Below are positions 12,758-19,791 of a stretch of 32,374 nucleotides of DNA, one piece after another. Source of the DNA: Patescibacteria group bacterium. Lineage in GTDB: Bacteria; Patescibacteriota; Minisyncoccia; Phycocordibacterales; Phycocordibacteraceae. The position numbers and the translations under genes were made by a program. The notes under the pieces are model-generated. The model was given only the letters and a program-made list of their open reading frames with translations, searched no databases and had not been told where the DNA came from. The first letter of the stretch is position 1. Each line of letters opens with the position of its first letter. The DNA lies in NCBI GenBank assembly GCA_018971265.1, contig JAGXBE010000005.1, forward strand, positions 1 to 32,374, read 5' to 3'.

Positions 12758-13123
12758 ATGAAAACCATCTTCGACCATCTCGAAAACGTAAAAGGGAAGC
12801 CGCACCACGTCCGTAAGAGGATAGCTTTCGGCGCGGCGACGACCGGTACCGCACTCGTCGCTCTGGTGTGGTTGGCGAACGCGCTTTCCACGGGGGCCTT
12901 CGCCCTCAAGGACGGCTCGTTTGCAGAGAACACTGGACAAGGGTTCGCGGGAACAACCGATTTCGGAAATGGAAACCAAAATCTCGCGGGTGCCGCCTCC
13001 GCTCTTTCGTCCGCCGGACAGGATTCCACCGCTGCATCCGTCCCGGCGCACATCAGAATCGTTGACGCCGCCTCCTCAACATCGAGTGCAAGTCAGCAGG
13101 ATGAGACGATCATACCCTTCTAA
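12758..13123 (+). CDS. Hypothetical single-TM protein upstream of gyrA
   Basis: N-term basic segment, TM GAATTGTALVALVWLANAL, low-complexity extracytoplasmic tail. Confidence 0.6.
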   Translation: MKTIFDHLENVKGKPHHVRKRIAFGAATTGTALVALVWLANALSTGAFALKDGSFAENTGQGFAGTTDFGNGNQNLAGAASALSSAGQDSTAASVPAHIRIVDAASSTSSASQQDETIIPF

Positions 13124-15628: not shown

Positions 15629-15716
15629 ATCCGAAAAAAGAAAATTGCCTCCGGAATACGGCGAATGTTGATTGTGCGGCCCGCTGCGGGCCGCATGTGC
15701 TATGTTGTAGAGAATT

Positions 15717-16259
15717 ATGAGCGCGCATTTTAGCGATCCGCGGGAGAACGTATTGCAACTCGGGTTACGCGAGGGTATGAAAGTGGGCGATTTTGGGGCG
15801 GGTTCAGGTCACTACGCGCGCGCGGCCGCCGCCATTGTCGGGCAGAGCGGAAAGGTCTACGCAATCGACATACAGGAAGACGTACTTAAACATCTCAAAC
15901 TCAACACACAAGAACACCACCAGGGCACCATCGATACGCTTTGGGGAAACATCGAGAAATCGGGCGGCACGCACCTGCGCGACGCGTCTCTTGACGCAGT
16001 TATTCTCGCCAACACGTTTTTCCAAGTCGAAAACCGCTTTGGACTTCTGGAAGAGGTGAGGCGGGTGCTAAAACCAGGCGGGAAACTCATGCTTATCGAC
16101 TGGGCTGGCAGCTACGGCGGCATGGGTCCCGCGCCCGAACGCGTCGTGCCCGAACACGAAGCCGAAGCATTTTTCATCAACGGCGGCCTGCATAAGATGA
16201 AATCGTTTCGCGCCGGTCCACACCATTACGGCATCGTTTTTACTGTTCCCGACCTATGA
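15717..16259 (+). CDS. SAM-dependent class I methyltransferase
   Basis: VGDFGAGSGHYARAAA (motif I), VYAIDIQEDVLKH, DAVILANTFFQV, VLKPGGKLMLIDW. Confidence 0.85.
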   Translation: MSAHFSDPRENVLQLGLREGMKVGDFGAGSGHYARAAAAIVGQSGKVYAIDIQEDVLKHLKLNTQEHHQGTIDTLWGNIEKSGGTHLRDASLDAVILANTFFQVENRFGLLEEVRRVLKPGGKLMLIDWAGSYGGMGPAPERVVPEHEAEAFFINGGLHKMKSFRAGPHHYGIVFTVPDL

Positions 16260-17569
16260 GAATCTCTCTCTTCCAAGGAATCCTCATTGGCGTTTTTAGT
16301 CTCGGAGCCCTCATCGGACTTTTCGTTTTTGCGACGTATACAGGAAGCAATAAAAGCGCCGCGAACGTGGTCGGCCCCGTCGTTATTTGGGGGACACTCC
16401 CGAAAGATGACATAAATACGGCTCTCGTTGCCGCCGGTAAAGTTGACGCGACGCTCAAGGGCGTCTCGTACGTACAGAAGGATCCAGAGACACTGTCCAC
16501 CGACCTGGCCACGGCAATAGCGACAGGGGCGGCGCCCGATCTCATTCTTTCTTCGCAGGAGAACCTTCTCACGCTCAGGAAGCTGATTAAACCAATACCG
16601 ATCTCTACGCTTTCCGCGCGCACGTTCGAGGATACTTTCACCGCAGAGGCAAACCTCTTCGCTGTGCCGGGTGCCAACGGCTACTACGGAATACCGTTTC
16701 TCATCGATCCTCTCGTGCTTTTCTCGAATCAAGATATTCTTTCTTCCGACGGTATTGCGGTTCCACCTACGACATGGGAGGAGATCATCGGTCTCGTATC
16801 GAAAGTCGCCCTGTTTACGCCGGCGCAGCAGATAACGCGCGGCCTTATTGCGCTCGGAACCTATGACAACGTTCATGATGCACGGGGGATACTCTCGGCA
16901 CTTTTCCTTCAGGCAGGAGCGCCGCTTTCTTCATACTCTTCCGGTGACACCCTTGCCGCAAACCTCGGCGAGACCGGCAATGGAGGCGTGCGAGCCGGAC
17001 AGGCGGCTCTCGGTTTCTATACCCAATTTGCCGACCCTTCGAAGATCTCATACACCTGGAATGCTTCGTTGCCGGATTCGCAGCGGTCGTTTCTTGCGGG
17101 CAATCTCGGTCTGTATCTCGGATACGTTTCTGAGGCGCGGTATTTTGTGGCGGCAAATCCGAATCTCAACTTCAATGTTTCTCCCCTGCCGCAGCCCGCA
17201 ACCGCCGCGCTCAAGAGCGCGTATGGCCTCGTCTATGCGTTCATGATACCGCTTGGCGCAAAAAATCCTACCGGCGCGTACACCGTCGCCTCATTGCTCA
17301 CCGGCTCTACCGAGCAGAGTACCGCTGCACTTGCGACCGGGCTTGCGCCGGCGGTGCGAAGCGCTCTTGCGAGCGCCCCTGCAGATGATCCCGTTGCTGC
17401 GGTTGCATATGCCGAAGCGCTCTATACCGAAGGATGGTTGTCCCCAGCGCCTGCGGACACGGACAGAATTTTCTCGAGTATGATTGGAAATGTGATAAGC
17501 GGCCGCTCTAATTTGGATACCGCGCTTAGCTTTGCCGAGCAGTCTTTGACGGCTCTCTTGCAACAATGA
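16256..17569 (+). CDS. Membrane-anchored extracellular solute-binding-like protein (SBP family 1-like)
   Basis: N-terminal TM LIGVFSLGALIGLFVFATY; VVIWGTLPKDDINTAL, ATAIATGAAPDLILSS, YGIPFLIDPLVLFSNQDIL, PPTTWEEII, SFLAGNLGLYLGYVSEA. Confidence 0.75.
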   Translation: MRISLFQGILIGVFSLGALIGLFVFATYTGSNKSAANVVGPVVIWGTLPKDDINTALVAAGKVDATLKGVSYVQKDPETLSTDLATAIATGAAPDLILSSQENLLTLRKLIKPIPISTLSARTFEDTFTAEANLFAVPGANGYYGIPFLIDPLVLFSNQDILSSDGIAVPPTTWEEIIGLVSKVALFTPAQQITRGLIALGTYDNVHDARGILSALFLQAGAPLSSYSSGDTLAANLGETGNGGVRAGQAALGFYTQFADPSKISYTWNASLPDSQRSFLAGNLGLYLGYVSEARYFVAANPNLNFNVSPLPQPATAALKSAYGLVYAFMIPLGAKNPTGAYTVASLLTGSTEQSTAALATGLAPAVRSALASAPADDPVAAVAYAEALYTEGWLSPAPADTDRIFSSMIGNVISGRSNLDTALSFAEQSLTALLQQ

Positions 17570-18096
17570 GGAAACATACAATCGTTCTTGCCGCGCTTCT
17601 CGTCTCCACAACGTCTCTCGGTGCGTTCGCTGGGGTTGCTTTCGCACAAGCCGCCAACGGCCAGAGCTGTTTTGCCTCTACCGACTGCGCATCAGGTTAT
17701 TGCCAAGGAGATGCGGGAAATACAGGCGGAGGAACCTGCCAACCAAACCCGTCGCAAGTACAAACAAGTGTTACCAACACTGGTGGTTCAGGTCCCAGTA
17801 TCTCCCTCATAAATCCACTTAGCGGAGTTGACTGCAGCAGCGGCAACGGAAATTGTTTAGTCGCATTTCTGAACAACATTCTCGATTTTGTCATACGCAT
17901 CGGCTCCATCGCCGTCATCCTCATGCTGGTCTACGTCGGCTTCCTTTTTGTCACGGCGCGGGGCGAGCCGGGGAAGATCTCCACTGCACGCCAAGCGCTC
18001 CTCTGGACGGTCGTCGGCGCACTAATCCTTCTCGGTGCCAAAGCGATTTCGCTTGGGATACAGGCGACCGTGCAAGCGCTTTCGATCGGAAGCTAG
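17566..18096 (+). CDS. VirB2/TrbC-like pilin with signal peptide and Cys-rich N-domain
   Basis: Signal peptide; CFASTDCASGYC; two TMs NNILDFVIRIGSIAVILMLVYVGFLFVTARG...ALLWTVVGALILLGAKAISLGI. Confidence 0.65.
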   Translation: MRKHTIVLAALLVSTTSLGAFAGVAFAQAANGQSCFASTDCASGYCQGDAGNTGGGTCQPNPSQVQTSVTNTGGSGPSISLINPLSGVDCSSGNGNCLVAFLNNILDFVIRIGSIAVILMLVYVGFLFVTARGEPGKISTARQALLWTVVGALILLGAKAISLGIQATVQALSIGS

Positions 18097-18097
18097 C

Positions 18098-18367
18098 ATG
18101 ACCTTCGCCCAATTCGTCGGCAATGGCACCACCGGCGTCATCGGTGTTTTGAACACCATCGTGATACCGGTCATCTTCGCACTCGCTTTTCTCATATTTA
18201 TCTGGGGCGTCTTGAACCATTTCTTCCTCCACGGCGGGGAAGACGGTAGTCGTGAAGAGGGCAGACAGTTTATCCTTTGGGGCGTCTTGGGAATGGTGGT
18301 GCTTTTCTCGGTGTGGGGGATAATCAACATGCTGTTATCCACGCTCGGCATCGCACCCGGCGTATAG
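18098..18367 (+). CDS. Two-TM pilin-like small membrane protein (paralog 1)
   Basis: NTIVIPVIFALAFLIFIWGVLNHFFLHGGEDGSREEGRQFILWGVLGMVVLFSVWGIINMLLSTLG; start reset to MTFAQFVG. Confidence 0.7.
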   Translation: MTFAQFVGNGTTGVIGVLNTIVIPVIFALAFLIFIWGVLNHFFLHGGEDGSREEGRQFILWGVLGMVVLFSVWGIINMLLSTLGIAPGV

Positions 18368-18388
18368 CCCCTGTATACTTACAAGACC

Positions 18389-18703
18389 ATGATTACTTTC
18401 ACGAGCTGTGTCGCCGGCATCTGCACCGTCGCGGAGACCATCCTATATCTCATCAACTCGGTTCTGGTGCCGCTCCTCTTCGCCATCGCCTTCATTGTAT
18501 TTCTCTATGGCATCGCAAAGGCCTATATATTTTCCGGAGGCGATCCGGAAAAGATAAAAGACGGCCACAAACTTGTCCTCTGGGGCCTCATCGGTTTCGT
18601 TGTCATGATTTCGCTCTGGGGGCTCGTCAATGTCGTTTCCAACACTTTCGGGCTTGCGGGCTACGGCGCACCGTCAACGCCGACCTCATACCCGGCATAC
18701 TAA
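18389..18703 (+). CDS. Two-TM pilin-like small membrane protein (paralog 2)
   Basis: NSVLVPLLFAIAFIVFLYGIAKAYIFSGGDPEKIKDGHKLVLWGLIGFVVMISLWGLVNVVSNTFG. Confidence 0.7.
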   Translation: MITFTSCVAGICTVAETILYLINSVLVPLLFAIAFIVFLYGIAKAYIFSGGDPEKIKDGHKLVLWGLIGFVVMISLWGLVNVVSNTFGLAGYGAPSTPTSYPAY

Positions 18704-18711
18704 AATAAATT

Positions 18712-19011
18712 ATGGGTGGTATAAACACGTCGTATCTGGATAGTTATAAAAACAGTATTCTTTACATCATCAATGGTCTTCTCGCGCCCGTGTTGCTCGC
18801 CGTCGCTTTCATCACCTTCCTCTGGGGCGTCTACAAGTACTTTATCCTCGGTGCTGATAACGAGACCGAACGTAGGGCGGGCAAGCAAGTTGTCCTCTGG
18901 GGCCTCATCGGTTTTGTAGTCATTTTCTCCGTCTGGGGCCTCGTCGGTCTCGTCATGAGCACATTCAACCTTTCGCCAGGCGGCTCAGCGCCCGCTTACC
19001 CGACACTTTAA
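18712..19011 (+). CDS. Two-TM pilin-like small membrane protein (paralog 3)
   Basis: NGLLAPVLLAVAFITFLWGVYKYFILGADNETERRAGKQVVLWGLIGFVVIFSVWGLVGLVMSTFN. Confidence 0.7.
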   Translation: MGGINTSYLDSYKNSILYIINGLLAPVLLAVAFITFLWGVYKYFILGADNETERRAGKQVVLWGLIGFVVIFSVWGLVGLVMSTFNLSPGGSAPAYPTL

Positions 19012-19093
19012 GCTATCCACACGCGGTCCCGGACCACCGTTGACCTCTGCTTCGGAGGCGCTACAATTACTCCGTTATCCGATTACCTATATT

Positions 19094-19468
19094 ATGAAAA
19101 AAGCTCTCGCCCTTACCACGTTAACGTTCTCTGCATTCGCTTTGCCGCTCGTCTCTTTCGCAGCAATCAACAACATATCGGACGTAGGTTCGTTTATCAT
19201 CAACTTGATAAACAACATCATCGTTCCGGTGCTTTTTGCCGTTGCGTTCATCGTCTTCCTCTGGGGAGCGTTTACGACCTTTATCTTGGGAGCCAACTCC
19301 GATGACGTGAAGGAAAAAGGAAAGAACCTCATGCTTTGGGGCCTTGTCGGATTTTTCGTCATGGTTTCGATCTGGGGTCTTGTAAATATCCTCACCGGCA
19401 CCGTCAGTTTAAACAACTCTGGGCCGACTGGCGGCACGCCGAAGGCGGGGGTAAACATCGGCGGTTAG
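19094..19468 (+). CDS. Two-TM pilin-like small membrane protein with signal peptide (paralog 4)
   Basis: Start reset to MKKALALTTLTFSAFALPLVSFA; NNIIVPVLFAVAFIVFLWGAFTTFILGANSDDVKEKGKNLMLWGLVGFFVMVSIWGLVNILTGT. Confidence 0.7.
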   Translation: MKKALALTTLTFSAFALPLVSFAAINNISDVGSFIINLINNIIVPVLFAVAFIVFLWGAFTTFILGANSDDVKEKGKNLMLWGLVGFFVMVSIWGLVNILTGTVSLNNSGPTGGTPKAGVNIGG

Positions 19469-19472
19469 GTTA

Positions 19473-19742
19473 ATGTCCGTACTGAACGCATTTCTCGCAA
19501 AGGTAGTCACGCAGATAATCAATCCGATTATCCTGCTTCTGGCTGCGGGCGCGTTCGTGGTCTTTCTCTGGGGCGTGTTTGAGTTTATCCGTCAAGCAGG
19601 AGAGGGAAGTAAACGCGAGGAAGGGCGTCGCGCTATCTTCTGGGGCCTTGTCGGTCTCGTGATTATCTTTGGCGCGTATGGGATTATAAATCTCGCGCTT
19701 AACACCTTCGGCCTGACGCCCCTCCAGAAAATTTCACAGTAA
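19473..19742 (+). CDS. Two-TM pilin-like small membrane protein (paralog 5)
   Basis: NPIILLLAAGAFVVFLWGVFEFIRQAGEGSKREEGRRAIFWGLVGLVIIFGAYGIINLALNTFG. Confidence 0.7.
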   Translation: MSVLNAFLAKVVTQIINPIILLLAAGAFVVFLWGVFEFIRQAGEGSKREEGRRAIFWGLVGLVIIFGAYGIINLALNTFGLTPLQKISQ

Positions 19743-19762: not shown

Positions 19763-19791
19763 AAGACCGCGCGGATGAACCGTGCGGTCTT
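19763..19791. terminator. Hairpin terminator after the pilin array (convergent junction)
   Basis: aagaccgcgcgg-atgaa-ccgtgcggtctt, 12-bp stem with one wobble; A-rich left flank would act as a T tract for the minus-strand gene. Confidence 0.6.

Follow-up and report, generated by a model that had tools for sequence, protein, structure and literature searches.

The window analyzed here is a single whole contig of 32,374 bases from a fragmented genome. At 15717-19742 it contains eight open reading frames which, as previously described, code for a methyltransferase (MT), a solute-binding protein (SBP) of a type that ordinarily supplies nutrient importers, and six small two-helix proteins (Table 1). 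The end of the MT gene overlaps the start of the SBP gene by the four nucleotides ATGA, as does the end of the SBP gene with the start of the first small protein, just as the preliminary description had it. Among the fetched loci, near-duplicates included, this overlap recurs between MT and SBP in 56 of 122 cases and between SBP and pilin in 46 of 142, and such coupling is also seen in a distant family (locus L226). The intergenic gaps downstream of the SBP are, in order, -4, 1, 21, 8, 82 and 4 nt. Given the 82-nt gap, the single coupled operon proposed earlier fits best for the genes from MT through pilin 4. A promoter-like site lies upstream of these last two genes, the count of such sites being not above that in shuffled sequence. 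The entire unit is flanked by two strong hairpins, of which the one 3' of gyrA is a probable gyrA terminator or processing site.

Table 1. Genes and other features in and around the MT-SBP-pilin unit
Feature	Coordinates	Strand	Description	Support
GC-rich hairpin	15674..15696	+	gyrA/unit interval; T-run absent 3'	-19.9 kcal/mol, z = -2.6
MT	15717..16259	+	class I SAM-dependent methyltransferase, UbiE/ArsM-like	PF08241 62 bits
SBP	16256..17569	+	membrane-anchored, maltose-binding-protein fold, N-terminal TM 8-26, no cysteine	PF13416 72 bits
T4SS pilin 1	17566..18096	+		PF18895 30.5 bits (cut-off 26.6)
T4SS pilin 2	18098..18367	+		PF18895 31.1 bits
T4SS pilin 3	18389..18703	+		PF18895 36.9 bits
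T4SS pilin 4	18712..19011	+	matches pilin-like conjugal transfer protein	PF18895 42.4 bits; NF045849 50.5 bits (cut-off 40)
Promoter-like site	19040..19067	+	TTGACC-16-TACAAT, upstream of pilins 5-6	weak evidence
T4SS pilin 5	19094..19468	+	signal-like N-terminus	PF18895 35.6 bits
T4SS pilin 6	19473..19742	+	conserved last-position class	PF18895 28.6 bits
Strong hairpin	19763..19791	+	between convergent units	-22.3 kcal/mol, z = -6.8

All six small proteins match the T4SS_pilin family (PF18895) above its curated cut-off, with scores of 28.1-43.2 bits against 26.6. Hydropathy gives each of them two TM-like segments separated by a short loop, in agreement with the tandem of two-TM proteins reported at first, and the AF2 model of pilin 4 is a helical hairpin. 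Pilin 1 combines a signal-like N-terminal segment and a six-cysteine ectodomain with its two TM helices, and pilin 5 likewise has an N-terminal signal-like segment besides its two TM-like segments. It had been considered that these proteins might prove to belong to a known unrelated family; the family is indeed known, but it is a pilin family. In a pilin tree, to be read with the caveat that the sequences are short, that most forks are unresolved and that middle pilins have been duplicated inside single lineages, both the first and the last pilins fall into positional classes that are conserved: pilin 6 falls in the starred clade of last pilins, and pilin 5 belongs to a starred clade of 8 whose positional class is conserved within the genus. 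The clustering of first and last pilins by position does not favor the pilins being interchangeable copies.

The earlier statement that the window contains no permease, VirB4 or VirD4 is true within the contig. Searching the rest of the genome, as had been suggested, recovers genes for VirB4 (contig C14, 2133-3953, 606 aa), TrsD, PrgI and VirD4-like ATPases, all on other contigs, while the search for VirB6 gave only a weak TrbL match on contig C38 (E 0.03); a clear TrbL is present in a relative (locus L227). The PrgI adjoining virB4 matches PF12666 with 38 bits. The 211 aa neighbor of virB4 has no Pfam match and was assigned as TrsD-like by its position and the description in PMC12102498. The TIGR00929 model was too loose a probe for VirB4, matching all 14 control genomes; hence VirB4 from this genome was used as the query instead, and homologs were found in 272 of 286 genomes of the phylum. 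A published survey places pilins near virB4 in 1135 of 1948 assemblies, so that proximity is not a strict requirement (PMC12102498). The preliminary description had viewed the locus as a candidate novel system not recognizable as a T4SS. Neither view survives, since the pilins belong to PF18895, a T4SS core is encoded elsewhere in the genome and similar arrays have been published (PMC12102498, PMC10633639). A stand-alone novel system is thereby rejected, and the region at 15717-19742 is a split-locus T4SS pilin array.

Co-conservation of the SBP with the pilin array, put forward earlier as a check, is extensive. Within the order to which this bacterium belongs, the SBP adjoins pilins in 79 of 80 named loci, with the 80th sitting at a contig end; outside the order it does so in 42 of 59 loci. 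The unlinked arrangement that was to count against a functional unit is thus absent from the order and from most loci sampled across the phylum, but it does occur in a minority of distant lineages (17 of 59 loci outside the order). On the SBP tree, linkage to pilins changes only 3 times, versus 15 in shuffles. Because the gene order is conserved across the phylum, a chance arrangement is excluded. Of 39 loci from relatives at the level of the order, 38 have MT upstream of the SBP, and in locus L172 MT stands there although gyrA is not adjacent; it is a frequent but dispensable neighbor of the SBP-pilin pair. Furthermore, same-strand clusters join the SBP and pilins to the T4SS core in two distant lineages: MT-SBP-PIL-PIL-PrgI-TrsD-VirB4 (L172 and L234) and SBP-4PIL-474aa-TrbL-TrbL-PrgI-TrsD-VirB4 (L227). 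The pilin array is thus near virB4 in L172 and L227, and on a different contig from it in the genome studied here. In seven genomes (families f66, f73 and f83) the SBP lies 10-12 kb from virB4. Among the 286 genomes of the phylum, 215 are matched by the SBP profile; about 70 have no detected SBP, though pilins and VirB4 are present in nearly all, and the SBP is therefore not universal.

The SBP belongs to the SBP_bac family by sequence (PF13416), and it has an AF2 model of pLDDT 93 and hits to the MBP fold. Its family and fold would suit a scavenging receptor that serves another transporter, its place beside the pilins being a historical coincidence of how genes are arranged in reduced genomes. 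This is an unlikely account, though it gains from the one PF00528 permease of this genome, encoded on contig C40 next to an ATPase of its own, which may be the SBP's partner there, and from a gene order that is conserved within the order beyond the unit, gyrA included. However, the C40 permease is SaoP/TauC-like rather than MalF/MalG-like, and of 73 relatives that carry the SBP, 45 have no PF00528 gene, among them G048, whose genome is a single contig; the model matches in all 14 control genomes. In addition, the linkage of SBP and pilins outlasts changes of the other neighbors across the phylum, the upstream gene being gyrA in this class and often galU elsewhere. As had been claimed, no cognate permease or ATPase lies at the locus, and none was recognized next to the SBP in the loci examined. 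A standard ABC importer is rejected for most relatives by the absence of PF00528, and in much of the phylum the SBP fold has probably been drawn from ABC import into another role.

A short linker holds the SBP beside the membrane, as might be expected of a pilus component with a structural or chaperone function that has lost ligand binding, for instance one replacing VirB5, VirB8 or VirB1. VirB1 and VirB8 are seldom recognized in Patescibacteria (PMC12102498), and in our reading of the alignment several of the maltose contacts of MBP are replaced in the SBP. We nevertheless hold such a role to be improbable, as the aromatic and polar residues that are invariant family-wide (W45, Y72, W174, N205, Q219, Y266 and W268) would fit a retained binding site. 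It is very doubtful that SBP and pilins form a host-specific adhesin or attachment fiber unrelated to the T4SS core: the pilins diverge fast, and in Paceibacterales that parasitize methanogens, T4SS pilin genes rank among the highly expressed ones (PMC10936435), but the SBP evolves slowly for such an adhesin (mean column identity of 46% versus 18% for the aligned pilins), one-strand clusters with virB4 occur in two distant lineages, and the first and last pilins are not freely varying copies.

The persistence of the SBP-pilin order without a matching importer suggests that the SBP is an overlooked part of the T4SS. We propose with moderate confidence that it is a dedicated receptor within the Patescibacterial T4SS, a component not described before, with a conserved and probably host-derived ligand. 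A membrane complex or surface fiber displaying a binding protein, the hypothesis first put forward, thus remains the best reading of this co-conserved unit with no adjacent importer. The unit would encode part of an MPF_FATA-like T4SS, namely distinct VirB2-like pilin subunits and an SBP tethered outside the membrane, which appears to have left ABC import and could contact the pilin complex as its ligand-binding receptor, gate or uptake factor. The VirB4/TrsD/PrgI core would assemble and energize the pilin complex, and the ligand in the SBP cleft might couple host contact to its assembly, opening or uptake. The Patescibacterial T4SS is essential in the only species tested, and its purpose is a matter of speculation in reviews, which consider uptake or the delivery of effectors (PMC10633639, PMC12857230, PMC11665869); Patescibacteria, which are tiny and parasite-like, probably use it on their hosts. 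A bolder and rather unlikely version is a receptor-fed uptake machine, in which the SBP hands a host ligand to a VirB4-energized channel of positional pilins. If true, this would be an importer made from secretion parts in cells without matching ABC permeases. The ligand and partner of the SBP would make the direction and trigger of the Patescibacterial T4SS testable.

Tandem VirB2-like pilin arrays are already known from Patescibacterial MPF_FATA-like T4SSs (PMC12102498; PMC10633639), and in S. epibionticum the array is essential (PMC10633639). The present system shares with these PF18895, tandem divergent pilins and PrgI, TrsD and VirB4 in the genome, and differs from them in that the array lies away from virB4 and has an SBP in front. 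No report of an SBP in Patescibacterial T4SS loci was found in the open-access literature, the scope of this search. With the diderm conjugative pilins VirB2 and TraM the pilins share two hydrophobic helices, a short loop and weak sequence matches (pilin 1 to TrbC/VirB2, PF04956, E 8e-5, below the cut-off; TraM, 8cw4, E 0.041). Unlike in those systems, there are several pilin subunits, some without a signal peptide. A Foldseek structure search with a pilin gave no VirB2-type match at E <= 0.001. The SBP has in common with SBP_bac_8/maltose-type importer proteins (MalE; MBP1, 4r9f) the sequence family, the two-lobed fold and an external membrane tether; unlike them it has no adjacent permease or ATPase recognized in the loci examined, the matching permease family is absent from most relatives, and in the alignment the greater part of the maltose contacts of MBP is lost. 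Finally, the sugar-binding protein ChvE of Agrobacterium raises the expression of vir/T4SS genes and does so by binding VirA (PMC4086400). In contrast to the SBP described here, ChvE is soluble and periplasmic, signals via a histidine kinase and works with an ABC transporter as well; the likeness, offered purely as an analogy, is that of a sugar-binding-type protein tied to a T4SS beyond import.

Examination of the open reading frames at 15717-19742 of the window reveals eight genes on one strand, constituting a unit flanked by hairpins 5' of the methyltransferase gene and 3' of the final gene (see table). The preliminary description had proposed that these encode a candidate novel system, with a methyltransferase, a solute-binding protein (SBP) and six pilin-like proteins in a coupled operon. 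The gene arrangement is confirmed, including ATGA overlaps at both the methyltransferase/SBP and SBP/first-pilin junctions; however, the system is not novel as such, because all six small proteins match PF18895 (T4SS_pilin) above the Pfam cut-off and constitute a known T4SS pilin array. Pilin 4 additionally exceeds the NCBIfam cut-off for a pilin-like conjugal transfer protein, and a whole-genome profile search (E <= 0.001) recovered only these six PF18895 matches in the genome. The gap ahead of pilins 5 and 6 contains a promoter-like site, but such sites are no more frequent than in shuffled sequence, and a second promoter is no more than a possibility here. The ectodomain of pilin 1 contains six cysteines; it might be disulfide-bonded or engage a partner at the surface.

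Features of the pilin unit and of related loci (L numbers denote fetched loci)
Feature	Location	Gap to preceding gene (nt)	Length (aa)
Secreted-looking protein	window 12758-13123		121
Whole unit	window 15717-19742		
Methyltransferase	window 15717-16259		180
SBP	window 16256-17569		437
Pilin 1	window 17566-18096	-4	176
Pilin 2		1	89
Pilin 3		21	104
Pilin 4		8	99
Pilin 5		82	124
Pilin 6		4	89
Candidate VirB6 pair, contig C38	L241:1960-5756		565, 708
Gene cut by end of contig C14	L065:1-447		
Large Cys-rich pilin, relative G025	L236:8709-9959		416

The methyltransferase was assigned to the class I enzymes. The SBP matches SBP_bac_8 (72 bits), and its predicted structure (pLDDT 93) assumes the maltose-binding-protein (MBP) fold; it has a single N-terminal TM segment and no cysteines, whereas several distant homologues have lipoprotein-like N-termini. 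Between the MBL-fold gene and gyrA lies a gene for a secreted-looking protein, which recurs within the genus and has no Pfam match.

In Phycocordibacterales (33 families sampled) the order gyrA-methyltransferase-SBP-pilins is near-constant. Among 80 named SBP loci from GTDB genomes a pilin is the next called gene after the SBP in 75 and follows one extra ORF call in 4, while the remaining one stops at a contig edge. Of 59 SBP loci fetched from outside the order, 42 have a pilin no more than three genes away; as these loci were hand-picked among phylum hits, mainly stronger ones first, the fraction should not be read as unbiased. The genes upstream of the SBP there are gyrA or others, often galU; a galU-like nucleotidyltransferase often adjoins the SBP, replacing the gyrA-methyltransferase pair (L173, L182, L185, L226, L227). 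Two arrays are variants: in L217 the SBP closes the row of pilins, and L225 has two SBPs ahead of the pilins. A tree built from 75 SBPs requires 3 changes between the linked and unlinked states, versus 15 in shuffles, and 12 of the 17 unlinked loci fall in one supported clade. Thus, the linkage is old and mostly stable, with the ancestral state hinging on the position of the root. Several members of an SBP clade without adjacent pilins (L190, L194, L198 and kin) lie beside GroES/GroEL genes; this clade possibly uses its SBP differently.

The pilin locus is joined to the T4SS core in two distant lineages, with the orders methyltransferase-SBP-pilin-pilin-PrgI-TrsD-VirB4 (L172/L234) and SBP-four pilins-474 aa protein-two TrbL/VirB6-like proteins-PrgI-TrsD-VirB4 (L227; second TrbL match under its cut-off). 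In seven genomes of families f66, f73 and f83, which may share ancestry, the SBP lies 10-12 kb from virB4. Across 286 genomes of Patescibacteriota, PF18895 was found in 279, VirB4 in 272 and the SBP profile in 215; hence the T4SS genes are almost ubiquitous, and the SBP is frequent without being present everywhere.

The genome itself (556,541 bases in 43 contigs, the window being one) encodes a PrgI protein (PF12666), a 211 aa TrsD-like protein and a 606 aa VirB4-like ATPase on contig C14, and VirD4/TraG-like ATPases on C5 and C18. The VirB6 candidate, located on C38, matches only weakly (E 0.03); two large ORFs downstream of a KsgA-like gene there, one with a weak TrbL match, form a candidate VirB6 pair. 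In a congeneric relative the core T4SS locus closes with a large Cys-rich pilin, adjoining Ig-like and VirB4 genes, with dnaA farther on. The end of C14 falls inside a gene at the corresponding position, so one further pilin may be absent from the assembly.

Importers using such SBPs have permeases of the PF00528 family. The model matched in 14 of 14 control genomes; it found no match in 50 of 79 relatives searched, or in 45 of the 73 carrying the SBP, including the single-contig G048, and a role as ABC receptor is accordingly rejected for most relatives. The one PF00528 gene of the present genome (contig C40; nearest to SaoP/TauC) has its own ATPase, and in this genome alone a partnership with the SBP is possible.

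On a tree of 148 pilin domains (27 loci, 86 columns), the majority of whose forks are unresolved, the first pilins and many of the second ones split from the remainder with strong support, and most last pilins stand apart; middle pilins have duplicated inside lineages. Position clusters on it (24 changes versus 71 in shuffles), which fits a machine of distinct subunits better than interchangeable copies. Mean column identity is 46% for the SBP versus 18% for the pilins, a contrast that is only indicative since the pilin alignment mixes paralogues.

VirB2-like arrays of 2-11 pilins and the kinship of VirB4 to MPF_FATA have been published for Patescibacteria (PMC12102498); in S. epibionticum an array of six pilins has proved essential (PMC10633639, PMC12857230), and methanogen-parasitic Paceibacterales have T4SS pilins among their highly expressed genes (PMC10936435). 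The pilin array is therefore of a known T4SS kind; its conserved SBP partner is unreported, with no mention of it found in the open-access main texts searched.

The best reading of these observations is that the SBP would serve the T4SS pilin complex as its receptor on the outside, where it may gate, sense or feed uptake. Its residues invariant in the order (W45, Y72, W174, N205, Q219, Y266, W268) are aromatic and polar, some being general SBP motifs. In a sequence alignment to MBP, several of the maltose contacts of MBP are replaced, and the ligand is thus probably other than maltose. The sugar-binding protein ChvE of Agrobacterium, which stimulates vir expression via VirA (PMC4086400), offers a precedent, purely by analogy, for an SBP in the service of a T4SS.
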